Source: Terriglobia bacterium
GTDB taxonomy: Bacteria > Acidobacteriota > Terriglobia > UBA7540
Assembly (NCBI GenBank): GCA_020072655.1
Contig: JAIQGH010000001.1
Span: 1-64,000, forward strand
Length of the DNA: 64,000 nt
Direction: 5' to 3'
The notes under the pieces were generated by a model. That model ran no database searches. It was not told the origin of the DNA and saw only the letters and a list, made by a program, of their open reading frames with translations. Below, one piece after another: positions 17,472 through 60,312 of this stretch. Numbering within the stretch: the stretch's first letter is position 1; each line of letters begins with the position of its first letter. The translations under genes and the position numbers were made by a program.

Positions 17472-17480
17472 ATTCAAACA

Positions 17481-17515
17481 GGTGCTAGGTGCTGGGGGCT
17501 GGGTGCTGGGCTGAC
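17481..17515 (-). repeat. Heptad tandem array upstream of nuoG
   Basis: On the plus strand the units are GGTGCTA, GGTGCTG, GGGGCTG, GGTGCTG, GGCTGAC. It lies 9 bases before the nuoG ATG on the coding strand. Confidence 0.83.
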
Positions 17516-17539
17516 CCCGGGCTTGCCCAGTTAACCATT

Positions 17540-17560
17540 CCCGAGTCCCGAGCCCCGAGG
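17540..17560 (-). repeat. Short heptad array between nuoF and nuoG
   Basis: Three plus-strand units: CCCGAGT, CCCGAGC, CCCGAGG. It is 13 bases past the nuoF stop, and the heptamer resembles that of the arrays at 30256-30346. Confidence 0.7.
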
Positions 17561-17573
17561 ACCTGCCGTCAGC

Positions 17574-18893: not shown

Positions 18894-18906
18894 TTTGAGA
18901 AGCAGC

Positions 18907-18934
18907 AGGATCAAGAATTAAGGATCAAGGGCAG
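18907..18934 (-). repeat. Heptad array, left arm of an inverted pair (nuoE-nuoF gap)
   Basis: Plus-strand units AGGATCA, AGAATTA, AGGATCA, AGGGCAG. Bases 18907-18924 are complementary to 18981-18998 at 17 of 18 positions, so the nuoE-nuoF junction of the transcript can fold into a long hairpin. Confidence 0.8.
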
Positions 18935-18973
18935 AAAGCCTTGCTTTCCCGGTGCCGCCTGTATTTGATACGG

Positions 18974-19008
18974 TCCTTAATCCTTAATCCTTGATCCTTG
19001 ATCCTTCT
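18974..19008 (-). repeat. Heptad array containing the nuoE stop, right arm of the pair
   Basis: Plus-strand units TCCTTAA, TCCTTAA, TCCTTGA, TCCTTGA, TCCTTCT. The nuoE stop (18977-18979) lies inside, so the array encodes the last residues of NuoE (KDQGSRIKD). Confidence 0.87.
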
Positions 19009-19471
19009 TTCTTAGATCTGCAAGCAACGCGTCAAGCTTCTCCGGTGTCACGTTCTCGTAGAAATCGTAGTTCACCTGCATCGCCGGCGCGCCGCAGCAG
19101 GCACCCAGACACTCGACCTCCTCGAGCGAAAACAGTCCGTCCGGTGTGGTCTGTTTGTGTTCGATGCCCAGCTCCTTGGCGCAATGCTCGAAGATCTTCT
19201 CGCCGCCGCGCAGCATGCAAGAAATGTTCGTGCACACCTGGAGATGAAACTTGCCCACCGGCTGGCGATGCAACATCGAGTAGTAGCCGATGTCCTCGAT
19301 AACTTCGATCGGGTTGACGCCCACGCGCCGAGCGATCTCCTCGACGGCTTCGTCCGAGACGTACCCGATTTCGTCCTGCGCGAACAGCAGGAGCGGCACG
19401 ATGGCCGAGCGCTTGAGAGGGTAGCGGGCAATGACCGAATCGAATTTGGCCTTCAACCTGTCGGACAGCAT
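18977..19471 (-). CDS. nuoE: NADH-quinone oxidoreductase subunit E
   Basis: NuoE is a thioredoxin-fold 2Fe-2S subunit of the NADH-oxidising module of complex I. The 164 residues include CTNISCMLRGG and ECLGACCGAPAM, which supply the four cluster cysteines. The ATG at 19471 (MLSDRLKAKF) is preferred. The longer frame to 19525 would translate a heptad array into the N-terminus and overlap nuoD. The C-terminus is also array-derived, ending in KKDQGSRIKD, an addition past the usual family end. Confidence 0.93.
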   Translation of the reverse strand: MLSDRLKAKFDSVIARYPLKRSAIVPLLLFAQDEIGYVSDEAVEEIARRVGVNPIEVIEDIGYYSMLHRQPVGKFHLQVCTNISCMLRGGEKIFEHCAKELGIEHKQTTPDGLFSLEEVECLGACCGAPAMQVNYDFYENVTPEKLDALLADLRKKDQGSRIKD

Positions 19472-30255: not shown

Positions 30256-30290
30256 TTCGGGACTCGGGATTCGGATTTCGGGGTTCGGGG
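30256..30290 (-). repeat. Heptad array upstream of holB, left arm of inverted pair
   Basis: Plus-strand units TTCGGGA, CTCGGGA, TTCGGAT, TTCGGGG, TTCGGGG. It begins four bases from the holB ATG. Bases 30277-30289 pair with 30321-30333 (12 of 13, plus one G-T). Confidence 0.86.
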
Positions 30291-30311
30291 AAGAAAGATG
30301 GCTTCGCGCTC

Positions 30312-31037
30312 TCAGCGAATCCCGGACCCCGAAACCCGAGACCCTCGCGCCCGCTGACGACGCGCCAGAAATGCATCAACTATTTCTTGTATCTCCGTCT
30401 GAACCTCAGCGACGGCCCGGTCGGCTTTCACCACCTTCACGCGCCGAGGGTCCTGTCGCGCGATGGCCAGATATCCGGCACGCACGCGCTGGTGGAATTC
30501 GAGCCCCGCGGCTTCAAACCGGCCGCGGGCGGAGTTGCGGCGGATTTCGCGGCCCTGCGCGCGCGCCAGCGCCACGCGCGGATCAAGATCAAGCACAACC
30601 GTGAGGTCGGCTTGAGTCCGGCCGCAGACAAGGCGATCGAACGCGCGCACGGTCTGAACGCCCAGTTTCCGCCCGTATCCCTGGTAGGCCAAAGAGGCGT
30701 GATTGAAGCGGTCGCTCACGACGATCTCTTTGCGAGCGAGTGCCGGCCGCACAACCTCTTCCAGGTGCTGTGCTCGCGCCGCATAAATCAGAGCGAGTTC
30801 GGCGAGCGGCGCAAGGTGCCCTGTTCGCGAGGCCAGGAGGATGCTCCGCACCTGCTCGCCCACACGAGTTCCGCCCGGCTCGCGGGTCGAGACGACGGTG
30901 AGACCCCGATTCCGCAAGTGGCGAACGAGCAGCCGCTGCTGGGTGCTCTTGCCCGTGCCGTCGATTCCTTCCAGCGTGATAAGCAGTCCGCGGCGTCTCA
31001 ACTTCGGAGCGTTTCCAGAGGAGTGATTTGATCTCAA
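30312..31037 (-). CDS. tmk: Thymidylate kinase
   Basis: Thymidylate kinase phosphorylates dTMP to dTDP. The 241 residues hold the P-loop LEGIDGTGKSTQ (about residue 28), the DRX motif SDRFNHASLAYQG, and a LID region REIRRNSARGRFE. It is about 30 residues longer than usual: the C-terminus after AFLARRQR is encoded by a heptad array, and the N-terminus may be over-extended. The TTG at 31037 is the longest start; a TTG at 31001 would give a more normal N-terminus. Confidence 0.9.
   Translation of the reverse strand: MRSNHSSGNAPKLRRRGLLITLEGIDGTGKSTQQRLLVRHLRNRGLTVVSTREPGGTRVGEQVRSILLASRTGHLAPLAELALIYAARAQHLEEVVRPALARKEIVVSDRFNHASLAYQGYGRKLGVQTVRAFDRLVCGRTQADLTVVLDLDPRVALARAQGREIRRNSARGRFEAAGLEFHQRVRAGYLAIARQDPRRVKVVKADRAVAEVQTEIQEIVDAFLARRQRARGSRVSGSGIR
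30319..30346 (-). repeat. Heptad array inside the tmk 3' end, right arm of inverted pair
   Basis: Plus-strand units ATCCCGG, ACCCCGA, AACCCGA, GACCCTC. It encodes the C-terminal ARGSRVSGSGIR of the kinase and is the inverted match of the array at 30256. Confidence 0.8.
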
Positions 31038-33613: not shown

Positions 33614-33625
33614 GCCGATGCGGAA

Positions 33626-34223
33626 GGGCACGACTTCAGTCGCGCCTCCAAATCCCTTGTGCTTAGGACACTTCCGGGGCTTCAGCCCCTGAGCTGTTGA
33701 TGTGGTGAAACCCTCCCATCCTGGGGCCTGGCGGACATTCTTCGTGACATCCGCTACTTGGGAGAGACGCTCACTGTTTCAGTCGGAGCGAATGGCGAAT
33801 TTGTTCCTCGACGTGCTTTTCCATTATCGAACCCGCGGCTGCTATCATCTCCACGAATTCGTGCTCATGCCCGACCATTTTCACTTGCTCATTTCGCTGG
33901 AACCGGGGATGAGTGTCGAGCGCGCTGTGCAATTTCTGAAGGGCGGCTTTTCATTCCGTGCCGGAAAGGAGCTGGGGCTCAAGGGTGAATTGTGGCAGCG
34001 GGGGTTTACGGACCATTTCGTTAAGGACTCGCATGACTTCCAAAACCATGCGACGTATATTCGGGATAATCCGGTTGAGGGCGGGTTAGTGGCGCGGGCG
34101 GAGGAGTATCCTTACTCGTCGGCTTGCCACACTTTTGATTTGGATGCGCCGCCTCCGCACCTCAGGGGCTGAAGCCCCGGGGTGAGCTTCGAGAGAGCTT
34201 TGTGGCACGACTGAAGTCGTGCC
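33626..34223 (+). mobile_element. REP/RAYT element: transposase gene inside nested inverted hairpins
   Basis: Four palindromes surround one gene in mirror order. The outer left hairpin is at 33626-33646 (CACGACT, TC, AGTCG core) and the inner left at 33676-33689 (GGGGCT, TC, AGCCCC). The inner right is at 34165-34178 (GGGGCT, GA, AGCCCC) and the outer right at 34204-34223 (GGCACGACT, GA, AGTCGTGCC). Left and right copies are inverted with respect to each other. The right inner hairpin contains the transposase stop codon in its loop. This is the layout of a BIME with its RAYT. Confidence 0.82.
33702..34172 (+). CDS. REP-associated tyrosine transposase (RAYT)
   Basis: A Y1-type HUH single-strand DNA transposase related to IS200. 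The 156 residues carry the HUH motif in EFVLMPDHFHLLISLEPG (about residue 64). The catalytic tyrosine is most likely in NHATYIRDNPVEGG (about residue 123), with KGELWQRGFTDHFVKD between. The N-terminus WRTFFVTSATWERRSLF fits the family. RAYTs are single-copy domesticated transposases thought to mobilise REP hairpins, and such hairpins flank it directly. GTG 33702 is used; GTG 33705 is equally possible. The gene looks intact. Confidence 0.88.
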   Translation: MVKPSHPGAWRTFFVTSATWERRSLFQSERMANLFLDVLFHYRTRGCYHLHEFVLMPDHFHLLISLEPGMSVERAVQFLKGGFSFRAGKELGLKGELWQRGFTDHFVKDSHDFQNHATYIRDNPVEGGLVARAEEYPYSSACHTFDLDAPPPHLRG

Positions 34224-34321
34224 CTTCCACCAAGTGCTGAAGCCCGCTCGAGAAGGAGGGAGAGGCATGGCGCCTGACCTCCTCTCGGGAGCGGCAAGTG
34301 ACTCGCTGAAGAGGTGAGATT

Positions 34322-44769: not shown

Positions 44770-45858
44770 TTACTTCTTTCCCCCCACGAGGAAGATTAGG
44801 TCAATGATCAGGATAATCACTACAATGAGTTCCAGGACGAACGCCCGGCCCTGGTGGAATTGCTCAACCATGAACTGGTAGAGTCCCTCGGCCGTGCGCA
44901 GCTTATCGTGGACGAGCTTCTTGTAATCCGGGACACCGACTTTCTCGGCCGCCAGGCGGTAGAGGCGCGCGGAAAACATATCACTCAGGAATTTCAGCGC
45001 GTTGTCGGAGCGTTCGGTCAGCTCGGTGACTTCCAGTAACAGCGTGTAAAGGCGCGCCGACACCCGCGCCAGCCGCCACCGGGCGAGAAATCCGGTCCCC
45101 TTTTCGAGCGATTGATAGGCGGTCTGGAGCTGCCGCGTCAGAACCTCATCATAGTGGCGAAACTCGAGGAGCTGCGAGTTGGCATATTCCAGCAACTGCA
45201 CCGTGGCCTCGGCGCCGGCGGCGGTATCGTACACGAAGGCAGCGTTCCAGCCGACGACCGCGAGGTCGTTGGGATAATAGGACATGCTGTTGGCAAGGAT
45301 CTCGTGCCGTTCGCCGTCCGAAAGCCGCGTGCTCTCGCCCCGCACGATTTGCGCAATCCGGTCGCCATACTGAGCCAGGAGATCGGCCGCGGAGGGGTGG
45401 CCTTCGACTTCCCGCACATGAATGATGCAGTAGTCCTCGGAGAGCCAGTTGGGGAGGGGCTTGATAAGCGCCCTCGCCACCCGCTCTACCTTTTGGCAGG
45501 CGATCGTATAGGCTTGGCGCCCGACTTCGGTCCCCGCCAGGTATTGGCAGGCCAGGTCCAGCAGCGCGTCCCATCCGCCCTCGAAAGGAAGCTCGAATTG
45601 CACGCTGACCACGCCGTAGTCGTAGTATTTCACGCGTCCACCCAGGCGTGCGCCGTTCGCCAGCGTGACCGCCTCCAGAGGTTCGACCACCGGTGGCCGC
45701 TCGAAACCCACGTACTCGGGCGCGGGGTGCCGAAACCAAGTTTCCCGGCCGACGGACGCGAGGCCCAGCAGGCGGTGGAGCTCTGCCAGCCGCATCTCAT
45801 CGCACACATCGTAAAGAGTGAAAAACAGGAACGAACCGCAAAGTGACGGCTGGGACAT
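44770..45858 (-). CDS. C-terminally membrane-anchored protein of unknown function
   Basis: A 362-residue protein with a soluble, mixed alpha/beta N-terminal two thirds, a long helical stretch (residues 235-335) and one C-terminal transmembrane helix (FVLELIVVIILIIDLIFLVG). The tail-anchored layout is like the RMD1/DUF155 proteins, but the sequence match is weak. ILANSMSYYPNDLAVVGWN is a distinctive central motif. It sits between glnA and glnE on the opposite strand. Confidence 0.6.
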   Translation of the reverse strand: MSQPSLCGSFLFFTLYDVCDEMRLAELHRLLGLASVGRETWFRHPAPEYVGFERPPVVEPLEAVTLANGARLGGRVKYYDYGVVSVQFELPFEGGWDALLDLACQYLAGTEVGRQAYTIACQKVERVARALIKPLPNWLSEDYCIIHVREVEGHPSAADLLAQYGDRIAQIVRGESTRLSDGERHEILANSMSYYPNDLAVVGWNAAFVYDTAAGAEATVQLLEYANSQLLEFRHYDEVLTRQLQTAYQSLEKGTGFLARWRLARVSARLYTLLLEVTELTERSDNALKFLSDMFSARLYRLAAEKVGVPDYKKLVHDKLRTAEGLYQFMVEQFHQGRAFVLELIVVIILIIDLIFLVGGKK

Positions 45859-46088
45859 TGATCCCTCTCCATTGAACGGGAGGACGCTCGCGCGTCCGAG
45901 ACCACCTGAGCCCTGTACCCCAATCTAACACAAACCCAACGGTGATGCCTTGGCGCCAAGACCGAACTCGCGGCGGATAGCGGATGCGCAGCGTCCTCGC
46001 ATTTCTCCGCTTGAAAATTCCCCCAGACCTGTGCATGTTATCCGGCACCGCTCCTTGGGGCCTCTCATTGGAGGGTATAATCGACCCG
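45859..46088 (+). other. Intergenic region upstream of glnE
   Basis: The open frame of glnE continues upstream here, but the sequence codes for an implausible N-terminus and holds no domain. It probably carries the glnE promoter; no clear -35/-10 pair was found. Confidence 0.4.
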
Positions 46089-49058
46089 ATGCGGCCTGAG
46101 TTCGCTAAAGTTCCTTTCGAGGACGACGCCAAAGCCCAGGGGAATCTGGCGCGATTGGAGCAACACTTCGCTGGCAGCCTCCTGGCCCCGCTGGCCTCCC
46201 TGCTCGCCCAGTCTCCGGACCCGGACGGCGCGCTCAATCTTCTCGAGCGATACACGCAAGCCGCCACGCCCGAGCACTTGCGTGAACTGGAGCGCTACCC
46301 GACCGCCTTGACCTACCTCGTGGCGATTTTCGGATACAGCGCCTTTCTGGCCGAAACCTTCCTGGCTGAGCCGGCCTTGCCGTTGCTGTTCGCGCGCGAC
46401 CGAAACTTCACCAAGCTCAAGTCGAAGGAAGACTTGATGGAGGACTACGCGCGATTTGCCACCACCAATCCCGACCCCTGGCTCTCGGCCCAACTGGCTC
46501 GCTTCAAGCGCCGCAACTACCTGCGCATCGTGCTCAAGGATGTTTTGCGGCTTTCGACGCTCGGCGAGACGACGGCGGAGCTCTCCGCGCTGGCCGACGT
46601 CATCCTCACGAACGTCCTCCTTTTCTGCGACCAGGAACTCGAGAAACGGTACGGCCAGCCGCAGTACCGCGACCTCGAAGGGCGGATTGTCCGCGCCGGC
46701 CTCAGCATCATTTCTCTCGGCAAGCTGGGCGGCAACGAGCTCAACTACAGTTCGGACATCGATCTGTTGTTTCTCTATTCTCACGATGGCACGACCGCCG
46801 GCGGCAGCGAATCGGATTCGGTCGTGAGCAACAAGGAGTACTTCGTACGCCTTGCGCACGCCATCACCCGGACCATTACTCAGGTGACGCCGCAGGGCGC
46901 GGTCTTCCGTGTCGACCTCCGACTGCGCCCGGAGGGCGAGCAGGGTGATCTGGCGATCTCGCTGAAGTCAGCGCTCGAGTATTACGAGCACCGGGCGCGC
47001 GACTGGGAACTGCAAATGCTCATCAAGGCGCGGCATTCGGCCGGCGACACAAAGCTGACGCGGGAATTTCTGAGAGGGGTCGAGCCTTACATTTACGGTG
47101 CGCCGGGTGATTTCGAGGCGATCGAAAGCGTGCTCTTGGCGCGGGAGAAGATCTCGCGCCGGTTGCGCGAGAGCCGTGACGAAACCACGGACGTGAAGCT
47201 TCATCAAGGCGGCATCCGCGACATCGAATTTCTTACCCAGTGCCTGCAGCGTCTCCACGGCAGCGAAGACCCGTGGGTGCGCTCTGGAGGAACGCTCTTC
47301 GCGCTGCGCAAGCTGAACGACAAGGGACGCCTTTCGGATCGCGATTATGCCGCCCTGACTTCCGCCTACGAGTTCCTCCGCCGGATCGAGCACCGCATCC
47401 AGCTCGACATGGGCCACCAGAGCCATCGGCTGCCGGCGGGCCACCGGGCGCTGGACCGGCTGGCACGCCGCGTGGGCGTCGAGACTGGACGTCAGGAGCC
47501 GCCGGGTGAGGCGCTCAACCGCCAGATCGAGGAGGCCTTCGGCCACGTCGCGGAGATCTACCAGCGCACGATTCGTCCCCGGCCGGCAAGCGTCGGGGGC
47601 GCGGCTTTCGACCTGCGGTCGCCACCCACTTTCCCCAGCGATCACAGCGTGTCTTCGCTCGACCCCATTCTCGCTTTCCTCGATGCCCAGGCTGCGGACA
47701 TTGCCCGGCAGGTCCGGTCGGTTCCCATCCCCGAACGGGCGCGGCGCAGCGTGGCCCGGTTCTTCGGCTCGCTGCTCGCCTCCGCGGAACAGTTCGAAGG
47801 CGTGCGTAAACAACCCGAACGCCTCGGCTCGGCGCTGGAGATCCTGCGGGCGAGCGACTACCTGGGCGAATTGCTCATCCACCATCCCGAAGATCTGGCG
47901 TCCATCGAGGCCCTCGCGCCTGCCTCGCCGACGCCGGGGGCCGCCGCCCAGATGGAAATGCCCCTCCTTGCGATGGATGCTCGGCAGCAGTTGTCTCCCG
48001 ATCCTTGGGCGATCGAGACGGGGCTTGGCACGCCGGAGAAAATGGCGTTGCTGCGACGGCTGTTTCGAGCGCGTGTGCTCTCGCTGGGAGCTTCCGATCT
48101 CAAGGGCCTGGACGGCATTTTTGCGGCTCTGCATCGCTGGTCGGCCCTCGCGGCCCGCTCCGTCGCCACGGCGCTCGCCATTGCCGCGCAGGCCCAGAAT
48201 CAAAGAATCGCGGACTCACCCCTGATGGTTTTGGGGCTCGGCCGCTTGGGTTTGCGCGAGTTCGATCTGGCCTCCGACGCGGACTTGGTTTTCGTCGCCG
48301 CTCCCGGCACATCGCGCGAAAAGATGATTGAGTGCACGCGCCTGGCGGAGAAGACGATCGAGGTGCTTTCGAGCTACACCCGCGACGGCACGATCTTCGC
48401 CGTCGATACACGCCTCCGGCCGCGTGGCCAGGAGGGCGAACTGGTCGTGAACGCGGACGCACTCGTCAACTACATCCACGACGCCGCCCATGTTTGGGAA
48501 GCCTTGACCTACTTGAAGGTTTCGGCCGTGGCGGGTGAGGCCTCGCGCGCCCAGGCCACGGTCGAGCGAATCGCCGCCGCGGTCTGGCAACGCTTCGCGG
48601 AGCATCCCGGCCTGGAGGCGGAATTGCGCGAGATGCGACGCCGCCTGGAGAGGGAAGTTCTGGTCCCACCCTCCAACACCAAGACCGCACCGGGCGGCTA
48701 CTACGATATCGACTTCGCCGTGTCGTACTTGCGCCTGCGCAACCGCGTGCCGCTCCCGCCCGGTACGAATATGCCAGGGCAGATTTCAGCATTGAACGGG
48801 GCGGGGCTGATGAGCGACCAGGACGCCGCGGTGCTCGGCGAAGGCGCGGCCTTCCTGCGCTCCCTGGATCACGCCGTTCGGTTGGTCACCGGCAAGGCAG
48901 CGGACGGCCTGCCGGAACATGTTGGTCACGCTGAGGCCGTCGAATCGCTGGCGGCTCACTGGCGCCTGATCGGCGCTGGTCAGACGCTCGCCCAGCGTCT
49001 CCTCGAAACCCAAAAACAAGTTCGCTCCGTCTATCGGCGGCTTGTCGGGGCAGAGTAG
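46089..49058 (+). CDS. glnE: Bifunctional glutamine synthetase adenylyltransferase/deadenylase
   Basis: GlnE adds AMP to, or removes it from, the regulatory tyrosine of glutamine synthetase. The 989 residues form two nucleotidyltransferase halves. The first (deadenylase) has LGKLGGNELNYSSDIDLLFL and DLRLRPEGEQGD; the second (adenylylase) has LGLGRLGLREFDLASDADLVF and DTRLRPRGQEGELV. Both keep the paired aspartates. ATG 46089 (MRPEFAKVPF) gives the usual length; the upstream extension to 45984 is rejected. The glnA product has the target tyrosine. Confidence 0.94.
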   Translation: MRPEFAKVPFEDDAKAQGNLARLEQHFAGSLLAPLASLLAQSPDPDGALNLLERYTQAATPEHLRELERYPTALTYLVAIFGYSAFLAETFLAEPALPLLFARDRNFTKLKSKEDLMEDYARFATTNPDPWLSAQLARFKRRNYLRIVLKDVLRLSTLGETTAELSALADVILTNVLLFCDQELEKRYGQPQYRDLEGRIVRAGLSIISLGKLGGNELNYSSDIDLLFLYSHDGTTAGGSESDSVVSNKEYFVRLAHAITRTITQVTPQGAVFRVDLRLRPEGEQGDLAISLKSALEYYEHRARDWELQMLIKARHSAGDTKLTREFLRGVEPYIYGAPGDFEAIESVLLAREKISRRLRESRDETTDVKLHQGGIRDIEFLTQCLQRLHGSEDPWVRSGGTLFALRKLNDKGRLSDRDYAALTSAYEFLRRIEHRIQLDMGHQSHRLPAGHRALDRLARRVGVETGRQEPPGEALNRQIEEAFGHVAEIYQRTIRPRPASVGGAAFDLRSPPTFPSDHSVSSLDPILAFLDAQAADIARQVRSVPIPERARRSVARFFGSLLASAEQFEGVRKQPERLGSALEILRASDYLGELLIHHPEDLASIEALAPASPTPGAAAQMEMPLLAMDARQQLSPDPWAIETGLGTPEKMALLRRLFRARVLSLGASDLKGLDGIFAALHRWSALAARSVATALAIAAQAQNQRIADSPLMVLGLGRLGLREFDLASDADLVFVAAPGTSREKMIECTRLAEKTIEVLSSYTRDGTIFAVDTRLRPRGQEGELVVNADALVNYIHDAAHVWEALTYLKVSAVAGEASRAQATVERIAAAVWQRFAEHPGLEAELREMRRRLEREVLVPPSNTKTAPGGYYDIDFAVSYLRLRNRVPLPPGTNMPGQISALNGAGLMSDQDAAVLGEGAAFLRSLDHAVRLVTGKAADGLPEHVGHAEAVESLAAHWRLIGAGQTLAQRLLETQKQVRSVYRRLVGAE

Positions 49059-49101
49059 TCCGCGCGTTGCGGCGCGTGGCAAGCGATGCAGCTCGGAGGT
49101 C

Positions 49102-49851
49102 CTATCCCTTGCGCTTCGCCTGCTCCGCGACGGCCTTGGCGGCGCGGGCCACGGCCTCGGGGTCGCCCAGGTAGTAGTGGCGGAGGGGTTTCAGGTCGTC
49201 ATCCAGCTCGTAAACGAGCGGGATTCCCGTGGGGATGTTCAGTTCGACGATAGCCTGGTCCGAGACATTGTCGAGGTACTTGACGAGACCGCGCAGGCTG
49301 TTGCCGTGGGCGGCGACGATCACGCGCAGGCCGGAGCGCACCGCGGGCGCGATCGTGTCGTGCCAGTAGGGAAGCGTGCGCGCTACGGTGTCTTTGAGGC
49401 ACTCGGTCAACGGCAGTTCCTCGGGCTTCATATCGGCGTAGCGTGGGTCCTTGCCCGGAAAGCGTTCGTCCTCAGGAGTCAGAGCCGGGGGCTGGATGTC
49501 GTAACTGCGGCGCCAGATTTTGACTTGCGCCTCGCCGTATTTCTCGGCGGTCTGCGCCTTGTTGAGCCCTTGCAGCGCGCCGTAGTGGCGCTCGTTCAGC
49601 CGCCAACTGTTGTGGACCGGGATCCACATCTGGTCCATTTCCTCCATCGCCAGCCACAGCGTTTTGATGGCGCGCTTCAAGACCGACGTGTAGGCCACAT
49701 CGAAAATATAGCCTTCCTTGCGCAGCAGCCTGCCGCTTTCGATGGCCTCCTCAGCGCACTTCTCGCTCAGGCCTACATCCGTCCAGCCCGTGAAGAGATT
49801 CTCCTTGTTCCAGATGCTCTCTCCGTGTCGAAGTAGTACTAACCTGTGCAT
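49102..49851 (-). CDS. gpmA: 2,3-bisphosphoglycerate-dependent phosphoglycerate mutase
   Basis: GpmA interconverts 3- and 2-phosphoglycerate in glycolysis. The 249 residues start with the catalytic histidine motif [20 protein letters not shown]. They include [20 protein letters not shown] with the acid residue, and the second histidine in [21 protein letters not shown] 49851 is chosen; the frame continues to 49932 but would translate a heptad array. Confidence 0.96.
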
Positions 49852-49869
49852 GAGTGCAGATTCCTCCTC

Positions 49870-49917
49870 TGAAATCTTGAATCTGGCTTTGAAATCTTGA
49901 ATCTGAAATGTGAAATG
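49870..49917 (-). repeat. Heptad array upstream of gpmA
   Basis: Plus-strand units TGAAATC, TTGAATC, a 6-base interruption TGGCTT, then TGAAATC, TTGAATC, TGAAATG, TGAAATG. It starts 18 bases from the gpmA ATG. The repeat of the first pair shows an interrupted duplication. Confidence 0.82.
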
Positions 49918-49936
49918 CGAACCCAAGGGCAACGCC

Positions 49937-49959
49937 CCGCCCCTTCTTGGCAGGGGCGG
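49937..49959 (-). terminator. GC hairpin between alaS and gpmA
   Basis: CCGCCCC (49937-49943), 9-base loop, GGGGCGG (49953-49959), 15 bases past the alaS stop. There is no T-run, so it is a weak terminator candidate or a repeat. Confidence 0.4.
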
Positions 49960-49973
49960 TTCGCGAATCGCCC

Positions 49974-52796
<2,823 letters not shown>

Positions 52797-52799
52797 TGC

Positions 52800-52827
52800 G
52801 AATTCTGAATTATGAATTCTGAATTAA
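52800..52827 (-). repeat. Heptad array, left arm of a 24-base inverted repeat
   Basis: Plus-strand units GAATTCT, GAATTAT, GAATTCT, GAATTAA. Bases 52803-52826 are the exact reverse complement of 53260-53283. It lies between the alaS start and the four-helix-bundle gene. Confidence 0.9.
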
Positions 52828-52837
52828 GTCCTCTGGT

Positions 52838-53260
52838 TCAGAGTCGCCGTTTTGATTTGGTGCTGACGATAATCGACGTGATCACTGCAATCAACTCCTC
52901 CGTCTCGTTTGTGAGGCGGCTGAATCGATCTCGGGGCACGAGGTCAGATTCTGACAGCAGGCGGAGCCAGTACAAGCTTTCTCTTGCTTCCTTTTGTGCG
53001 ATGCCGAGCTTATGCACGAAATCCGGCCGACTCTCCGCTGACTGCGCTTCCTCGATGTTTGCACCAACCGAACATGCGGCGCGCAAGAACTGCTTTCCGA
53101 GGATCCAGCTAGCCCCGTCCCTTTGCTTTTGAAGATACTGATAGCGCCTCACTGCGCGAAGCGAGTATTTGAATGATCGCGCCCTTATGTCACTGGGTTG
53201 TAAGCGCAATCGAGAGCCTGGATCGAGAACGGTTCTATCCGCGAGCGTTTTTTCATTCAT
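52838..53260 (-). CDS. Four-helix-bundle protein of the 23S rRNA intervening-sequence family
   Basis: A 140-residue helical protein of the S23/IVP family, first known from insertions within 23S rRNA genes and also found free-standing. The marks are a basic N-terminal helix, then LRAACSVGANIEEAQSAESR (about residue 60) and LGIAQKEARESLYWLRLL (about residue 85). It is not in an rRNA gene here. Its ATG lies inside a heptad array, and the whole gene is bracketed by a 24-base inverted repeat. It separates alaS from recX. Its role is unknown. Confidence 0.88.
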   Translation of the reverse strand: MNEKTLADRTVLDPGSRLRLQPSDIRARSFKYSLRAVRRYQYLQKQRDGASWILGKQFLRAACSVGANIEEAQSAESRPDFVHKLGIAQKEARESLYWLRLLSESDLVPRDRFSRLTNETEELIAVITSIIVSTKSKRRL

Positions 53261-53287
53261 AATTCAGAATTCATAATTCAGAACTGA
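53253..53287 (-). repeat. Heptad array, right arm of a 24-base inverted repeat
   Basis: Plus-strand units TCATTCA, TAATTCA, GAATTCA, TAATTCA, GAACTGA. It contains the start codon of the four-helix-bundle gene and ends four bases before the recX stop. Confidence 0.9.
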
Positions 53288-53290
53288 CCC

Positions 53291-53812
53291 CTAGTCGGGC
53301 TCAGCATCAATCAACTCCGCACCTTGTGCGACGGGGTGAAGCTCCGGCCGGGACCGCACCGCTTTCATAATATCATCCGCGCGGAAGCCGCGGCGCAGCA
53401 AACTCTGGCAGAGCGACGCCAGCCTGGCCGGCGTGACGGGGAGGCGCAAGGTGCGGATCTTCTTTTCCAGCACTTGCGCGAGCAATTTCCGCTCATCGGT
53501 ATCTTCATAGGCCCGCTCGAGGGCCGGCTCGATGAACTTGTAGTTGACGAGTTTGGCTTTCAGTTCGCGCCGCACGCGGTAGCGGCCGAAGGATTTGTTG
53601 CGGGCGAGCGACGCCGCGTACTGCTCGGCGAACTTCTTGTCGTCCAGGTAACGAAGCTCGCGCAGGCGGGCAATGGCCGCGGCAACGGCGGGGTCGGCGG
53701 GAAAGCGGCGCTCGAGGGCCCGGCGGAGTTCGGCCACGGAATACGGGCGCCGGGCCAGCAGGCGGAGGGCGACCGAATACGCCTCCCGTGGTTCTCTCTT
53801 ATCTCTTCGCAA
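53291..53812 (-). CDS. recX: RecX-family regulator of RecA
   Basis: RecX binds RecA filaments and limits their activity. The 173 residues are helical repeats with the family pattern: AYSVALRLLARRPYSVAELR, LRELRYLDDKKFAEQYAASL and GRYRVRRELKAKLV. The end LCQSLLRRGFRADDIMKAVR matches the third helical repeat. It starts with TTG 53812 within the end of pilT (14-base overlap), suggesting coupling. recA is not in the window. Confidence 0.86.
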   Translation of the reverse strand: MRRDKREPREAYSVALRLLARRPYSVAELRRALERRFPADPAVAAAIARLRELRYLDDKKFAEQYAASLARNKSFGRYRVRRELKAKLVNYKFIEPALERAYEDTDERKLLAQVLEKKIRTLRLPVTPARLASLCQSLLRRGFRADDIMKAVRSRPELHPVAQGAELIDAEPD

Positions 53813-54935
53813 AGCGGTCCGTCTGGCTGGCCCGCTCCATTTCTTCGCGGGCTGCGTCCGCGGTCGAGCGAATGCCGGCGATGCGGAGCTTAAACTCGTC
53901 GGGATTGGACGAGTTGAGGAGCGCCTCCTCCAGCGTGATCAGTCCCTGCGTGTAGAGGTCATAGAGCGACTGATCGAAAGTCTGCATGCTGTACTGCGAG
54001 ACGCCGGCCGCGATGGCGTCGTGGATCAGACGTGTCTTCTCAGGGTTGATAACGCAATCCCGGATATACTCCGTGGCGATGAGGACTTCCACGGCGGGCA
54101 CGCGCCCGATGCCGTCGGACTTGCGGACCAGGCGCTGCGAGATGACCGCCTTGAGCGTCGTGGCCATCTGCAGGCGGATCTGTTTCTGCTCCGGCGGAGG
54201 AAAAACGGCAATGATGCGCTGAATCGTCTCCGTGGCGTCGAGGGTGTGCAAGGTGGAGAAAACCAGGTGGCCGGTTTCGGCGGCCAGCAGCGCGGTCTGA
54301 ATCGTTTCCAGGTCACGCATTTCGCCGACCAGGATGACATCCGGGTCCTGGCGCAAGGCGGCGCGCAACGCCGACCCGAAGCTGGGCGTGTCCACTTCGA
54401 CCTCGCGCTGGTTGACGAACGCCTTCTTGTCACGGTGCAGGAACTCGATGGGGTCCTCGATGGTAATGATATGGTCGGTCCGCGAAGAGTTGATGCGGTC
54501 CACCATGGCGGCGAGCGTCGTGGACTTGCCGCTGCCAGTCGTGCCGGTAACGAGCACGATGCCGCGCTGCTCCTCGCAGATATTGTCGATGACCCTGGGC
54601 AGATAGAGCTCCTCGAGTGTCCGAATCTTGGTGGGGATGACGCGCAACACCATGCCGACGTTGCCGCGCTGCTGGAAGACGTTGACGCGGAAGCGTCCGA
54701 GGCCCGCCACGCCGTAGGCCATGTCCAGCTCGGTGTTCTCCTTGAACTTCTGCTTCTGGCGGTTGGTCATGATGCTGAACGCCATGTTCAGCATGTCCTC
54801 GCTCGAGACGCGCTGGAACTGCTGGAGCGGACGCAGCTCGCCATCGACGCGGATGTAGGGATAGTTCCCGACCTTCAAATGCAGGTCGGAGGCCTTGCTC
54901 TCACAAGCTACCCGGAGCAGATCATCAATATTCAT
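53799..54935 (-). CDS. pilT: Type IV pilus twitching motility ATPase PilT
   Basis: PilT is the hexameric ATPase that drives pilus retraction at the inner membrane. The 378 residues show the N-terminal PAS-like part (SKASDLHLKVGNYPYIRVDG) and Walker A VTGTTGSGKSTTLAAM (about residue 130). The Asp box IITIEDPIEFLH, Walker B LRQDPDVILVGEMRDLET and His box TGHLVFSTLHT follow. PilU is a close alternative. No other pilus gene is in the window. Ahead of it lies a divergent TetR gene. Confidence 0.93.
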   Translation of the reverse strand: MNIDDLLRVACESKASDLHLKVGNYPYIRVDGELRPLQQFQRVSSEDMLNMAFSIMTNRQKQKFKENTELDMAYGVAGLGRFRVNVFQQRGNVGMVLRVIPTKIRTLEELYLPRVIDNICEEQRGIVLVTGTTGSGKSTTLAAMVDRINSSRTDHIITIEDPIEFLHRDKKAFVNQREVEVDTPSFGSALRAALRQDPDVILVGEMRDLETIQTALLAAETGHLVFSTLHTLDATETIQRIIAVFPPPEQKQIRLQMATTLKAVISQRLVRKSDGIGRVPAVEVLIATEYIRDCVINPEKTRLIHDAIAAGVSQYSMQTFDQSLYDLYTQGLITLEEALLNSSNPDEFKLRIAGIRSTADAAREEMERASQTDRFAKR

Positions 54936-55148
54936 TTCCCACCTTCACGGGAAGGCTTCCCTAGTGCTGTGGAAAACTAGCATACCGCCGCGCAGGTGTC
55001 AAAGGTGGAAGTCAGGTAGAACACGCAAAGCAGGACGTGGAGTGGGATGGGGGACGCAGGCTTCGTCAACGGGTTCTCGCATCTTATGCTTCGCTCCCTT
55101 TCGAACTGTGGTAGACTTTCCGCCCGACGGACTCCGTCGGTCGCGTCC

Positions 55149-55745
55149 ATGGCTCCTACTGGGGAATCCAAGCAGAAACTGCGCGAAATCTGCCGCGTCG
55201 CCGCGCGCGTTTTCTACGAGAAGGGTTACGACGGCGCCTCCATGCAGGATATCGCCGAGGCGGTCGGCCTGACCAAAGCCGGGCTCTATCACCACGTCGA
55301 GAGCAAGGATCGGCTGCTCTTCGAGATTATGAATTACGGCATGGACATCCTCGACGAGACGGTTCTGGAGCGAGTCAAAAACATCGCCGACCCGCGGGAA
55401 AAGCTCCGTCAGACCATCATTGGACACATCGACCTCGTGGTGAGAGCGCGGGACCAGGAAATCACGGTGATCCTGCACGAGAACCGCTCGCTGAAGGGCT
55501 CGCTGCGGAAGAGGATCAACGCCCGCAAGCGAAAATACATCGACTATCTGGAAGGATTGATCGGGCAGGTGCAGGAACGCGCCGAAAGGCGCCCGGCCAT
55601 CACGCCTCGCCTGGCGGCCTTCGCGCTGCTGGGGATGATCAACTGGCTTTATCAGTGGTTCCGTCCTGAGGGTGCCATCTCTCAGAATGAGCTCGCCGAG
55701 GCCTACGTCGACTTCTTTTTCCGCGGCCTGCTAGGAACCCCCTAG
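55149..55745 (+). CDS. TetR family transcriptional regulator
   Basis: A 198-residue TetR regulator. The N-terminal HTH is plain: ICRVAARVFYEKGYDGASMQ, DIAEAVGLTKAGLYHHVESK, DRLLFEIMNYG. The C-terminal part matches the KstR2/FadR-like lipid-sensing group in pattern (HIDLVVRARDQEITVILHE). ATG 55149 (MAPTGESKQK) is chosen over a longer frame. The ligand and target genes cannot be told. Confidence 0.88.
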   Translation: MAPTGESKQKLREICRVAARVFYEKGYDGASMQDIAEAVGLTKAGLYHHVESKDRLLFEIMNYGMDILDETVLERVKNIADPREKLRQTIIGHIDLVVRARDQEITVILHENRSLKGSLRKRINARKRKYIDYLEGLIGQVQERAERRPAITPRLAAFALLGMINWLYQWFRPEGAISQNELAEAYVDFFFRGLLGTP

Positions 55746-55904
55746 TTCTCGACTATCGGACATGACGACGCTGAGTAGCGGCTCGTGCGGCGGCCTATCG
55801 GTCCCGCCGCCTATTGTCGGGATGACTCTCGGCCCGCGCGGTCGTGCCGCGAATTGTCGAGCTGCGGGCGGCGTGCTAGCATCCGCTGGAACCCCGGAGG
55901 TTCC

Positions 55905-56732
55905 ATGACCTATCCCACAGTGGCGTTTCAGGGCGAACGTGGCTCGTTCAGTGAGGAGGCGGCTTACAAGCTGCTCGGCTCCCGCATCCGCGTTCACCCT
56001 TGCGAGACATTCGCGGAGACCTTCGAGTCGGTGGTGCGCGGCCGGACGAAGTTCTGCCTCGTCCCCATCGAAAACACCCTGGCGGGTTCGGTTTATGAAA
56101 ATTACGATCTGCTGCTCAAACACGACCTGCATATCATCGGCGAGGTGAATCTCCGCGTTGTCCACAACCTGATCGCCTTTCCCGGCACGACGCTGCAGAA
56201 CCTCCGTCAGGTTTACTCGCATCCCGTGGCGCTTGCCCAATGCGGCCGGTTTTTCAACCGCCACCCGAAAGTCAAAAAGGAGCCGTTCTATGACACCGCC
56301 GGAGGCGTCAAGATGCTCGCCGAGCGGCGCCCGGCGGCCGCCGCCGCCATAGCCAGCCGCGTTGCCGCGGAGGTCTACCACGCGCGAATTCTCCAGACTC
56401 ACCTCGAAGACCACCACGAGAATTTCACGCGTTTCCTGTTGCTTTCCAAGACTGCTGTCGTTTCCCGCAGGGCGAACAAGGTCTCGATTGTGTTCTCAAC
56501 TCGCAACGTTCCGGGCGCGCTCTTCAAGTGCCTGAGTGTCTTCGCGCTGCGCGAGATCGACCTGACGAAGATGGAATCCCGTCCTCTGCGCGGCCGGCCC
56601 TGGGAGTATTTCTTCTATCTGGATTTCATCGGGAACGTTGAGGACAAACTCTGCCGGAACGCCCTCGCCCACCTCTCGGAAGTGACGAATTTCCTTCGCG
56701 TCCTCGGCTGCTATGAAAGCGGGAAACGGTGA
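55905..56732 (+). CDS. pheA: Prephenate dehydratase
   Basis: PheA converts prephenate to phenylpyruvate in phenylalanine synthesis. The 275 residues begin with VAFQGERGSFSEEAAYKLLG and include the substrate motif CLVPIENTLAGSVYENYDLL and ENFTRFLLLSK (TRF motif). The C-terminal ACT domain has the Phe-binding FKCLSVFALREIDLTKMESR with ESRP. The form is monofunctional, without chorismate mutase. ATG 55905 sits behind CCGGAGG. Feedback control by phenylalanine is expected from the ACT domain. Confidence 0.95.
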   Translation: MTYPTVAFQGERGSFSEEAAYKLLGSRIRVHPCETFAETFESVVRGRTKFCLVPIENTLAGSVYENYDLLLKHDLHIIGEVNLRVVHNLIAFPGTTLQNLRQVYSHPVALAQCGRFFNRHPKVKKEPFYDTAGGVKMLAERRPAAAAAIASRVAAEVYHARILQTHLEDHHENFTRFLLLSKTAVVSRRANKVSIVFSTRNVPGALFKCLSVFALREIDLTKMESRPLRGRPWEYFFYLDFIGNVEDKLCRNALAHLSEVTNFLRVLGCYESGKR

Positions 56733-56874
56733 GGACGGCCCGACGTGCCGCTTGCCGCTCGGAGCAGCCGCTATTAGACTGGTGGAGGGCAGGGGATGAA
56801 TCGTTGAGCCTGCCAGAACCGCGGCCCGCATGATAGCCCTTCTGACCGAGAGTGAGCCCTGCCGAGGATTGCGG

Positions 56875-57372
56875 ATGCCCTCTGTTCTCGGAAGGCAGAA
56901 GTTGAGCGGCGTGCGACCCGTGCTTCTTTTCCTGCCGCTTGTGCTCCTCGTGTCCGGCGTTTCGCGTGGTCAGGAGCAAAGCGAGGCGGCGGATGACGTT
57001 ACGGGAACCTACCAGTTTCTCACTGCTGACGACACCCTGGGCCTGTTGGACGAGGAGGGCATACTCAAGGGATATATCGACGTCTTTCAGGGCGAGGAAG
57101 AGTCGGACGCGATCTTGAGTTATCCCCTCCTGAGCGGCTCGCACAAGAAGAACCAGGTCGAGTTCAGGACCGCGAAGATTCACCAGAAGTATTACCGGTT
57201 TAGCGGGACCGTGGAGCGGGGGACGGGACATGAGGGGCGCGACCCCGATTACTTGCGTCTCGTCGGCGACCTCGAGATCGTCACCGTCAACAGCGAAACC
57301 GGCAAGGAATCAACCGAACGAAGGCACGTGATCTTCAAATCGCGCGGCAATGAAGGCGAGAGAGGCCAGTAG
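56875..57372 (+). CDS. Exported protein of unknown function
   Basis: A 165-residue protein from ATG 56875. Residues 1-32 form a signal peptide (VRPVLLFLPLVLLVSGVSRG). The mature part is beta-rich and reads like a small lipocalin-type or barrel domain (VTGTYQFLTADDTLGLLDEE, KKNQVEFRTAKIHQKYYRFS). An upstream ATG at 56830 would add 15 residues ahead of the signal. No known family recognised. Confidence 0.62.
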   Translation: MPSVLGRQKLSGVRPVLLFLPLVLLVSGVSRGQEQSEAADDVTGTYQFLTADDTLGLLDEEGILKGYIDVFQGEEESDAILSYPLLSGSHKKNQVEFRTAKIHQKYYRFSGTVERGTGHEGRDPDYLRLVGDLEIVTVNSETGKESTERRHVIFKSRGNEGERGQ

Positions 57373-57488
57373 CCCCTCACCGGGCCGCATCGCTCCGAAC
57401 GCCGTCTCCTCACCGTCCGGATTCCAATCTCGCCGCGGCAATCCCCACGCATTCCCTCGTCTTGCACTCGTTTCTGTTGGAAAGTCGC

Positions 57489-57511
57489 TCCGCACAGGAG
57501 TGAGGCGCTAC
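57489..57511 (-). repeat. GTAG-headed REP-like hairpin (weak)
   Basis: Minus-strand GTAG (57511-57508), then CGCCTCACTCCTGTGCGGAG with a CTCC/GGAG core. It lies in the 57373-57547 gap between two converging genes, which holds nothing else visible. Confidence 0.4.
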
Positions 57512-57547
57512 GCAGCGTTCATCAGGATGGGTTCTCGCGGCGCCCCT

Positions 57548-58957
57548 TCAAATCTTCTTCTTGGGAGCGAAGTGGAGCGGCTTGCCGACGAGCACGTGCG
57601 CAGCTTCCAGCCAAGCCTCGGAGAGCGTGGGGTGGGCGTGGGTCGTGTCCGCGAGTTCCTCGGCGGTCAATTCGGCACGAATAGCCGCCGTCGCTTCGGC
57701 AATGAGTTCGGTGGCGTGCGGGCCGACGGCCTGGGCGCCAAGTAGTTGATCCGTCGACGCGTCCGCGATCCATTTGACAAAACCTGGCGCATGGCCCAAT
57801 GCCAGACCCTTACCGAGAGCGGCAAACCGGTACTTGCCGGTTTTGATTTCGAGATCCTTCTCGCGCGCTTCCCGCTCGCTGAGCCCAACGGTCCCGATCT
57901 CAGGTGAAGTAAAGATGCAGACGGGGACGGCCTTCTCGTTCTTGCGGAGCCGTCGGTTGCAAGCGTTTTCAGCGGCGGTCAGCCCCTGCGAAGTGGCGGC
58001 ATGGGCCAACTGAACGCCTCCGGTGACGTCGCCAATCGCATAGACGGTCGCCACTTGGGTTCTCCCATATTCGTCCACTTCAATGAAGCCCTGTGAGTTC
58101 GCGGTCAAACCCGCGTTGGCGAGATGCAATGCTGCAGTTACCGGCTTTCGGCCTAGGGCTGCGAGCAAAAGATCCGCTTCCAGCCATTCCTGGCCGGCTT
58201 GGGCACGAACCTGGCGGTCGTCAGGCACAAGATTGCTGAGACTCGTGCCGGTGATGACGCGAATTCCCAGAGCTTGTTCCATGTGCTGGCGAACCGTGCG
58301 GCGGACATCAGCGTCCAGGGTCCACAGGATATCTTCCAGAAGCTCAACGACAGTCACGCGCACATCGAGCTGCGCCAGCATGCAAGCGAACTCGCATCCG
58401 ATGAGCCCGCCTCCGAGGACGAGCACGCGCGAAGGCAGCAACTTCAGATCGAGAAAGGCCCGGCTTTCGACGACGCGCTCGTGTCGTGGCAGGAAGTCGG
58501 GCATAGCCGAGGCGGCTCCCGTAGCGATGATCGTTCTTTCGGCTCCAATGACCGTTGTCGGCGAGCCGCCAGGCGATTGTTGGGAATTTACGACGATGCG
58601 GTTCCGCCCCTCAAAGGACGCTGTGCCTTTGAAGACCTTTACGCCGTTGGCGGCCAGCAACTGCTGGACGCCGGTGCGCAGTGTCTGGACCGTCCGGTCC
58701 TTTCGGCCGACCATCGCTCGGTAGTCGAAGGAAACCTTCTCGGCGCTCAGCCCCAGGTCCTGGCAGGATTTCATCTGGGCATAGAGGTCCGAGGAGGCGA
58801 TGAGCGTCTTGGTGGGAATGCATCCCCAATTCAGACACGTCCCGCCGAGCTCCTCCTTTTCGACCAGCGCCACGGATGCCCCAAGCTGCGCGGCCCGGAT
58901 CGCCGCGGGATAGCCGCCGGGACCCGCGCCGATCACCACTACGCTAAACGTTTCCAC
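57548..58957 (-). CDS. lpdA: Dihydrolipoamide dehydrogenase (E3)
   Basis: E3 reoxidises the lipoyl groups of 2-oxoacid dehydrogenase complexes using FAD and NAD+. The 469 residues show the FAD site VVVIGAGPGGYPAAIRAAQLG, the redox pair GGTCLNWGCIPTKTL, the NAD site VLVLGGGLIGCEFA and YAIGDVTGG. The C-terminal His-Glu of THAHPTLSEAWLEAA forms the active-site base. GTG start at 58957, overlapping the E2 gene by 19 bases. It is the last gene of the pdh operon. Confidence 0.95.
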   Translation of the reverse strand: METFSVVVIGAGPGGYPAAIRAAQLGASVALVEKEELGGTCLNWGCIPTKTLIASSDLYAQMKSCQDLGLSAEKVSFDYRAMVGRKDRTVQTLRTGVQQLLAANGVKVFKGTASFEGRNRIVVNSQQSPGGSPTTVIGAERTIIATGAASAMPDFLPRHERVVESRAFLDLKLLPSRVLVLGGGLIGCEFACMLAQLDVRVTVVELLEDILWTLDADVRRTVRQHMEQALGIRVITGTSLSNLVPDDRQVRAQAGQEWLEADLLLAALGRKPVTAALHLANAGLTANSQGFIEVDEYGRTQVATVYAIGDVTGGVQLAHAATSQGLTAAENACNRRLRKNEKAVPVCIFTSPEIGTVGLSEREAREKDLEIKTGKYRFAALGKGLALGHAPGFVKWIADASTDQLLGAQAVGPHATELIAEATAAIRAELTAEELADTTHAHPTLSEAWLEAAHVLVGKPLHFAPKKKI

Positions 58958-60312
58958 AGAATCGTCTCCTCGAGTCTTTGCCTGACAGCGTTGATGAACC
59001 GAGCGGCCACGGCCCCGTCGATCAGGCGGTGATCCGACGCGAGAGTCATCTTCATGATGGTGCGGATCACGACTTGCTCGTCCTTGACGACCGGCTTCTG
59101 CTGGGCGCTCGAAACCGCCAGAATCGCGCTTTCTCCGGGGTTGATAATGGCCGTAAAATTCTCAACGTCCATCATACCCATGTTTGAAATGGTGAACGTG
59201 CTTCCCGTCATGTCGGCCGGATTGAGCCTCCCCGCGCGGGCTCTGGCCGTCAGTTCCGTGGCGGCCGCGTGGATTTCCTCCAGGCTCAACTGGTCCGCGT
59301 CGCGAATGACCGGAACCACCAACCCTTGTTCCATCGACGCCGCTAAACCGACGTCAACCCTGCTGTGCCACCGCAGGCTCTTGCCGTCCGTGGTGCTGTT
59401 GACCACCGGGAAATCAACCAACGTCAGCGCCACCGCTTTCACGATGAAATCTGTCAACGTGTAAGCTTTTCCCTGAGCCTTCAGCTCCGCTCGGAACGCG
59501 GCGAGATCCGTGACGTCGACCGAGACAGTGACGAAGTAGTGTGGCGCGGTTCGATAGCTCTGGGACAGACGTTCAGCGATCACCTGCCTCATCCGGTTCA
59601 GGGGCGTCGGGCGTTCCGCCATCGCGGCGCGGACGTCAGCGACCGTGATCCGGCCCTGACCCTGGCTCGGGAGTTTGAGAATGTCGATATTCTCTCGGAC
59701 AGCCAACTTCTTCGCCGCAGGGGTGAGCCGGAGCTGATCGTAGCCTTGAGCCTTCAGGTAGGCCGTGACATCCCTCTCCACGACCCTCCCGCCCGGACCC
59801 GTTCCGGCGATGGGCGAAGGGTCGATCCCCGCCTCCTTGGCAAGCCGGGCGGCGCGGGGGCTGATTCTGAAAATGCTCAGAGCTTCCTTTGTCGTGGGCA
59901 GGGGAGCTTCTAGAGCAGCCTGCTCGGCGCTCGGCGCCTCGACCACCTCCCGCGATGGCCGAGATCGAATTCCACCCGCCGGGCGGCTAATCTCCGCTGC
60001 CTCGGCTGGATGCTCCGGCGCTGAAACCTTCTTCGCCGGCTTGGCAAGGGCCGGCGCCACGGGGATGGGCTCGCCCGGCTCGCCGATATAGCCGATGGTG
60101 CTCTGAACGGGGACGGTCTCTCCCTCGGGCACCAGGATCTTGAGCAGCGTCCCTTCCTGGAAGCTCTCCACTTCGAGCAAGGCCTTGTCCGTCTCGATCT
60201 CGAAGAGGATTTCGCCTTTGGTGACACGCTCTCCTTCCTTCTTGAACCAGCGCACAATCGTGGCTTCCTCTTCGGACTGTCCCAGTTTGGGCATGGCAAC
60301 AGGTCGAACCAT
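58939..60312 (-). CDS. pdhC: Dihydrolipoamide acyltransferase (E2) of pyruvate-type dehydrogenase complex
   Basis: E2 is the core acyltransferase. The 457 residues have one lipoyl domain (lysine in FEIETDKALLEVES, about residue 43), a Pro/Ala linker, and two peripheral-subunit-binding-like domains in tandem. The first is ISPRAARLAKEAGIDPSPIA, the second LTPAAKKLAVRENIDILKLP. The catalytic domain ends with TLASDHRLIDGAVAARF. The double binding domain is unusual. ATG at 60312, 15 bases after the E1 gene. Whether it serves pyruvate or a branched-chain oxoacid cannot be settled here. Confidence 0.93.
   Translation of the reverse strand: MVRPVAMPKLGQSEEEATIVRWFKKEGERVTKGEILFEIETDKALLEVESFQEGTLLKILVPEGETVPVQSTIGYIGEPGEPIPVAPALAKPAKKVSAPEHPAEAAEISRPAGGIRSRPSREVVEAPSAEQAALEAPLPTTKEALSIFRISPRAARLAKEAGIDPSPIAGTGPGGRVVERDVTAYLKAQGYDQLRLTPAAKKLAVRENIDILKLPSQGQGRITVADVRAAMAERPTPLNRMRQVIAERLSQSYRTAPHYFVTVSVDVTDLAAFRAELKAQGKAYTLTDFIVKAVALTLVDFPVVNSTTDGKSLRWHSRVDVGLAASMEQGLVVPVIRDADQLSLEEIHAAATELTARARAGRLNPADMTGSTFTISNMGMMDVENFTAIINPGESAILAVSSAQQKPVVKDEQVVIRTIMKMTLASDHRLIDGAVAARFINAVRQRLEETILWKRLA

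Follow-up and report, generated by a model that had tools for sequence, protein, structure and literature searches.

A putative, rarely moving element composed of an IVP-type four-helix-bundle gene and inverted heptad arrays at the recX-alaS junction of a Terriglobia bacterium

The spacer between recX and alaS of a Terriglobia bacterium is filled by a small gene of the 23S rRNA intervening-sequence protein (IVP) family, which is bracketed by two inverted arrays of 7-bp units. This feature probably represents a single copy of an IVP/heptad element that is free-standing, seldom moves, has gene-less relatives, and is organized like REP-RAYT systems; its movement as well as binding of the heptad by the protein would have to be assumed. 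As indicated by sequence comparison, the gene is inherited together with its arms as a unit, each IVP subfamily having its own heptad, and copies of one subfamily are found in more than one phylum and at sites that are unrelated. Similar hairpins without a gene are scattered through the genome and occur at the same operon junctions. The distribution among relatives further indicates old residence at some sites, yet absence from the same sites in close relatives.

The cassette at the recX-alaS junction

The window, that is, the whole stretch of 64,000 nucleotides analysed (contig JAIQGH010000001.1, positions 1 to 64,000), contains a perfect inverted repeat of 24 nt, positions 52803-52826 being the exact reverse complement of positions 53260-53283, as claimed in the earlier note, with 433 nt between the arms. 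It is the longest perfect inverted repeat spanning at most 2 kb in the whole window; in 30 dinucleotide shuffles of the window, the corresponding length averaged 13.8 and never exceeded 16. According to a repeat search and a period-7 scan, both arms are built of heptads with the units ATTCTGA/ATTATGA. The left array (about 52795-52826) faces alaS and, relative to the coding strand of the IVP gene, lies downstream of it; the right array (about 53255-53283) faces recX and lies upstream. The gene itself (52838-53260, reverse strand) encodes a 140-amino acid protein whose sole Pfam match is PF05635 (23S_rRNA_IVP; E 2e-20, 73.2 bits, curated cut-off 33.8) and which also matches TIGR02436 (four helix bundle protein; E 2e-25, 89.2 bits, cut-off 24), so that the assignment as a 23S-IVS-type four-helix-bundle gene, previously made from the letters, is upheld. 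Its closest solved structure by sequence is 2rld (E 1e-23). The ATG (53260-53258) falls within the extended right array, and one of its bases also belongs to the perfect arm, in agreement with the proposed position of the start codon in one arm. Both flanking genes of the open reading frame list, alaS downstream (49974-52796) and recX upstream (53291-53812), are encoded on the same, reverse strand, and the cassette makes up the entire spacer between them, at the site where it had been placed. A match to alaS was obtained in 25/25 genomes searched, and recX adjoins alaS in 16 of the genomes searched. An Rfam search of positions 45000-60000 returned no family match, so no rRNA is located there.

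Inverted arms at IVP genes

For the scoring of arms, the left flank of a gene was aligned to the reverse complement of its right flank, with a threshold of at least 30. It had been considered earlier that further copies of the gene might exist and that arms might flank other four-helix-bundle genes, and both proved to be the case. Six IVP paralogs were found in the genome of the window (G000) in an initial search and 17 in a later family search, with more in relatives and in other phyla; among relatives, the copy number ranges from 0 to 23 (G020). Each of the first six paralogs of G000 has inverted short arrays on both sides, every unit being different, while four divergent copies in the same genome carry 8-mers or imperfect 7-mers of the ATTGA type. 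The threshold was reached by 21/22 copies of the genus and by 25/28 copies in relatives, and in an enlarged set of class relatives arms were present at 89% of 89 IVP copies. Arms are far commoner here than at PIN-domain genes, none of 29 of which had them, or in random windows, of which 0.3% of 3000 reached the score, so that an equal frequency at other genes, which would have spoken against the earlier note, was not what was seen; permuted flank pairing within the genus and relatives gave 5-10%, a value inflated by copies with a common unit. In class relatives the period of 7 is sharp, arm identity being 0.69 at lag 7 and 0.67 at lag 14 as opposed to about 0.25 off-period (lags 4-6 and 8-13).

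In other phyla, 54% of 80 IVP loci reach the same score versus 1.9% of permuted pairs, the arm-bearing loci including Planctomycetota, Acidobacteria, Chloroflexi, Bacteroidota, WOR-3, Kaiserbacteria, and gammaproteobacteria. The remaining 46% have weak or no arms by this score, which counts against the element reading. All six IVPs of the cultured bacterium Adhaeribacter soli are armed, with scores of 47 or more. Arms also occur at 27/34 IVP loci of viral-set contigs, which may include host DNA; four IVP-like genes of that set (L461, L462, L463, L472) are devoid of heptad arms and may represent a different family branch.

When the cargo of period-7 array pairs with loops of more than 150 nt was inspected (n = 63), 44 were flagged as IVP and 3 more contained IVP-like ORFs missed by the profile. 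Other cargo classes were rejected, since the non-IVP loops were host genes or noise. At L186 (11527-12344), a DUF5615 (PIN-like) gene lies in a weak inverted array pair with a loop of 779, possibly by chance. At L072 (6633-8104) the inverted arrays are nested: a host gene shares its CTGGGTG-type arms with an IVP cassette, and a compound element may have formed there.

Relation of the heptad to the IVP subfamily

Among copies with different neighbours, unit similarity was 0.611 at an IVP identity of 55-65% (215 pairs) and 0.676 at 65-90% (82 pairs), compared with a baseline of 0.447 for unrelated IVP copies (n = 4303). In a Mantel permutation of unit against protein, the observed association was exceeded in 0/2000 cases overall and likewise in 0/2000 when restricted to class relatives versus other-phyla loci. 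As an example, AGAAGTC/AGAATTC arms are common to L071 (G000), L381 (G020), L266 in a Bacteroidetes genome, and L287 in an Ignavibacteriales genome. The tie between the heptads and this protein family, raised as a possibility in the earlier note, therefore holds across phyla and is subfamily-specific. Since the arm units track the IVP subfamily despite differing neighbours and phyla, gene and arms descend together as one element.

Gene-less arrays and hairpins

In 707 kb of G000, 85 period-7 arrays were counted versus 0-10 for each other period between 5 and 11 (none for period 11), and no period-7 array was obtained from a shuffled subset of the sequence; the excess of intergenic period-7 arrays over other periods is that of heptameric simple sequence repeats. 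Arrays of the GAATTCTGAATT type are present at about 13 places. About 18 inverted heptad pairs occur in the 707 kb, mostly gene-less and with loops of 16-125 nt. Within the window, probable gene-less relatives of the cassette are a compact hairpin with the inverted heptads GGATCAA/CCTTAAT (18898-19009, loop of about 41 nt) and a compact inverted pair of TTCGGGG (30270-30339, loop of about 31 nt). A further compact, gene-less pair at 17479-17565 is weak, and unpaired heptad arrays are found at 1119, 31853, 31967, 36983, and 49900.

The units of the gene-less arrays of G000 match those of its resident IVPs at 0.742, compared with 0.663 ± 0.027 for the units of relatives (equal numbers), 0.625 for other phyla, and 0.619 for shuffled units. 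This contrast was not reproduced in G020, where 8/23 resident units are known: the match to resident units was 0.648, better than shuffled, but no higher than the 0.65-0.67 of relatives' units. Array density and IVP number over 31 genomes gave a non-significant correlation from small samples (rho 0.26, p 0.16). Both results count against the element reading.

An independent test was offered by the GGGAATC heptads of Xanthomonas genomes, of which 70-75 inverted pairs per genome are described and for which the available portion of the report draws no link to IVP genes (PMC4692102). The solved IVP XCC0516 (2GSC) is from Xanthomonas campestris. In a blind test, 369 genomes of the class of Thiohalocapsa were searched for (GGGAATC)3 and IVP was sought thereafter. 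The repeat was found in 1/369 genomes (G410), and the single PF05635 match of this genome has a GGGAATC array 17 bp upstream, one of 21 array sites; the chance of such proximity is estimated at about 7 in 10,000 (21 sites, 200-bp target, 5.7 Mb). In G410, compact inverted pairs are formed by several further GGGAATC sites, and gene-less units match resident IVP units in this genome as well as in G000.

Comparison of two operon junctions

At recX-alaS and at sucC-sucD, relatives alternate between a plain spacer, a gene-less hairpin, and a hairpin with an IVP gene. Three other genera carry an IVP at recX-alaS, and in every one of them the gene has its own complementary arms, so that an IVP standing there without arms in distant relatives, which would have spoken against the cassette, was not encountered; together with the window copy, the IVPs of the four genera form one clade (100/100). 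The question whether alaS-recX neighbours may lack the cassette is answered by G001, which is of the same genus, and by G008, both with a compact heptad hairpin only, and by several genomes with a plain short spacer. In G003 and G010, the junction is occupied by a GxxExxY (PF13366) gene with CACAGAG-type repeats. A second IVP cassette of G000 (L078, 8619-9197, contig C180) splits sucC from sucD, which encode two subunits of one enzyme. At this junction a related IVP is present in G004 and G008 and a decayed one in G010; a hairpin only is found in G001, G009, and G014, and almost nothing in G003, G011, G002, and others. G033, of another family, has an unrelated IVP with other arms, and in G006 a different, unrelated insertion is seen.

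In 5/6 genomes at recX-alaS and in 4/6 at sucC-sucD, the best pairing partner of an arm is the other arm of the same species, which argues that the two arms change together. The downstream arm stops just before the alaS start codon and likewise before that of sucD. No recent within-genome IVP duplicates were detected, which counts against the element reading; taken together with the single recX-alaS clade over four genera, this would mean that the element is stationary for long periods.

Alternative explanations

The arms might act in RNA. In that case they would pair in the operon transcript and fold the inserted gene away as in a 23S IVS, RNase III would cut the stem, and pairing would be kept to spare the flanking genes. 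The precedent is the 23S rRNA IVS of Coxiella, Leptospira, and others, in which a 28-bp terminal stem is cut by RNase III (PMC4990558). The cassette transcript is predicted to fold so that the gene is enclosed by a terminal stem of 26 bp (z -3.2), and both recX-alaS and sucC-sucD place the cassette between same-strand genes. In an RNA helix under selection, G.U mismatches are expected in strong excess. Over 126 cassettes, however, the arm mismatches comprised 187 G.T and 180 A.C, and the subsets lean in opposite directions at p of about 0.04 (130 versus 98 in class relatives, 57 versus 82 in other phyla). As there is no wobble excess, pairing looks to be at the DNA level; RNA-level selection on the arms is therefore not favoured, which speaks indirectly against excision by RNase III as well, and the RNA reading as a whole, the first of the rivals, is considered unlikely. 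Favoured instead is a role of the arms in DNA, where they may be terminal inverted repeats or form a single-stranded-DNA hairpin, or else copying between the arms.

It is more improbable still that heptad hairpins arise spontaneously in spacers, by polymerase slippage and copying between arms, and that IVP genes merely insert or survive best there. All but a few of the inverted pairs of G000 are indeed gene-less, the period-7 excess in many bacteria is blamed on slippage in the available parts of two reports (PMC4679880, PMC4692102), and the junctions are hairpin-only in G001 and G009 (sucC-sucD) and in G001 and G008 (recX-alaS). The match of unit and subfamily at unrelated sites and across phyla, however, already argues against IVP genes having fallen into unrelated local hairpins; moreover, PIN genes are never bracketed (0/29), and the GxxExxY genes at the same junction bear another kind of repeat. 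Least probable, and by our estimate very much so, is a domesticated host regulator, in which IVP would bind the flanking arms as operators and control the host operon, its spread being incidental. Long residence at recX-alaS in four genera, purifying selection, and the end of the downstream arm right before the alaS and sucD start codons would suit such a role, but not the repeated absence in close relatives, including G001, where the hairpin alone remains, nor neighbours that are unrelated from copy to copy, nor a copy number that varies from none to 23.

The element reading, which we prefer, would be carried by the following steps. The two inverted arrays of 7-bp units would act as the terminal inverted repeats of the element. 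In DNA, an IVP multimer would recognize the heptad of its own element, most likely when replication exposes it as a single strand or a hairpin; with host enzymes, the multimer would promote rare excision or insertion at gene junctions. Gene-less arrays and hairpins would be non-autonomous relatives or remnants. Orthologous IVPs are under purifying selection (dN/dS about 0.05-0.11 in the three pairs with estimable dS), hence the protein matters. To our knowledge, IVP has no catalytic, nuclease, or transposase motif, which counts against the element reading. A reverse transcriptase (PF00078) was not detected in G000 or G020, with 17 and 23 IVPs, respectively, and an Avd-like reverse transcriptase partner was accordingly rejected for these two genomes. 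From the suggestion of a free-standing mobile or stem-loop cassette in the earlier note, the free-standing state and the heptad ends can be retained. Mobility would follow from arms that are common to copies at unrelated sites and across phyla, and a stem-loop in the 23S-IVS sense of an RNA stem is not favoured, given the unbiased arm mismatches and the position of the element outside rRNA.

Relation to known systems

With the 23S rRNA IVS the cassette shares a PF05635 protein, a single small gene, complementary ends, here a perfect 24 nt with a predicted terminal RNA stem, and a size of about 430-450 nt (PMC4990558). It differs in lying at recX-alaS instead of inside a 23S rRNA helix, in having tandem heptads as ends, in occurring as many differing copies per genome at protein-gene junctions, and in showing no RNA pairing signature. 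REP/REPIN-RAYT systems consist of a Y1_Tnp tyrosine transposase gene between inverted repeats, with gene-less hairpins dispersed in the genome. The single gene with inverted repeats and the gene-less dispersal of the same repeat type are found here as well; IVP, however, is no tyrosine transposase, and its tandem 7-mer is private to each subfamily. Classical IS elements and MITEs have a fixed terminal inverted repeat and a target-site duplication, while the arms of IVP genes, being degenerate arrays, end without a sharp boundary, because of which element ends and target duplications are not definable; empty sites do exist.

Intergenic tandem 7-mers are likewise described as GGGAATC in Xanthomonas and GGGGAYT in Nostoc (PMC4692102) and as TAACTGA in Beggiatoaceae (PMC4679880), and period-7 arrays are over-represented in many bacteria, which the text available from both reports attributes to polymerase slippage. 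In so far as that text extends, these heptads are without a link to a gene family, whereas here the heptad belongs to the resident IVP. The P6b stem of the Nostoc tRNA-Leu intron resembles the window arms in being a hairpin of degenerate heptads (TDNGATT or NNTGAGT) and their complement, with whole-unit changes, but lies within a group I intron and contains no gene (PMC4476775). Avd of diversity-generating retroelements has a fold homologous to IVP and shares its family neighbourhood, but works with a reverse transcriptase (PMC10053308), of which none was detected in G000 or G020.

Implications and a parallel class

Provisionally, and measured against the open-access literature, stand-alone IVP/heptad cassettes would represent an undescribed kind of low-activity mobile element. 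The IVP gene, so far known mainly from rRNA inserts, is met here as a stand-alone gene across many phyla, and rRNA intervening sequences would be placed within a much larger family. Two long-known features would be linked, namely the dominance of period 7 among intergenic repeats in many bacteria and the role of the very common IVP genes; if true, both puzzles share one answer. A testable rule results: the heptad of the dispersed arrays of a genome should be readable from its resident IVP genes. The findings also suggest a mobile-element plan that is based on a structural protein instead of a transposase. In a wider proposal, to which we give slightly less than an even chance, these cassettes would make up a class of mobile element that is new and spans phyla, its private 7-bp tandem repeat being recognized and maintained by a four-helix-bundle protein that acts as a multimer and is no transposase. 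The arrays dispersed in many bacterial genomes would be its gene-less progeny and the rRNA IVSs rare landings in rRNA, while GxxExxY genes with 8-11-base repeats would form a parallel class built on the same plan.

The GxxExxY proteins (PF13366), which by family we take to be PD-(D/E)XK proteins, are encoded by genes bracketed by inverted repeats in 19/26 cases, with a broad period of 8-11, not 7. A same-orientation control gave a high score in 23%, the arms being more self-similar. The loci comprise L117 and L119 (recX-alaS of G010 and G003) and L118-L144, with repeats such as ACACAGAG, GCAGATTAAC, and CACGAAGG. That two small genes without relation to each other each have their own kind of inverted short tandem array suggests a common plan. 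As a contrast case, the window itself holds a REP-RAYT-like unit (33622-34228), in which a Y1_Tnp gene of the IS200-like, RAYT type (33702-34172) is located between inverted REP-like ends.
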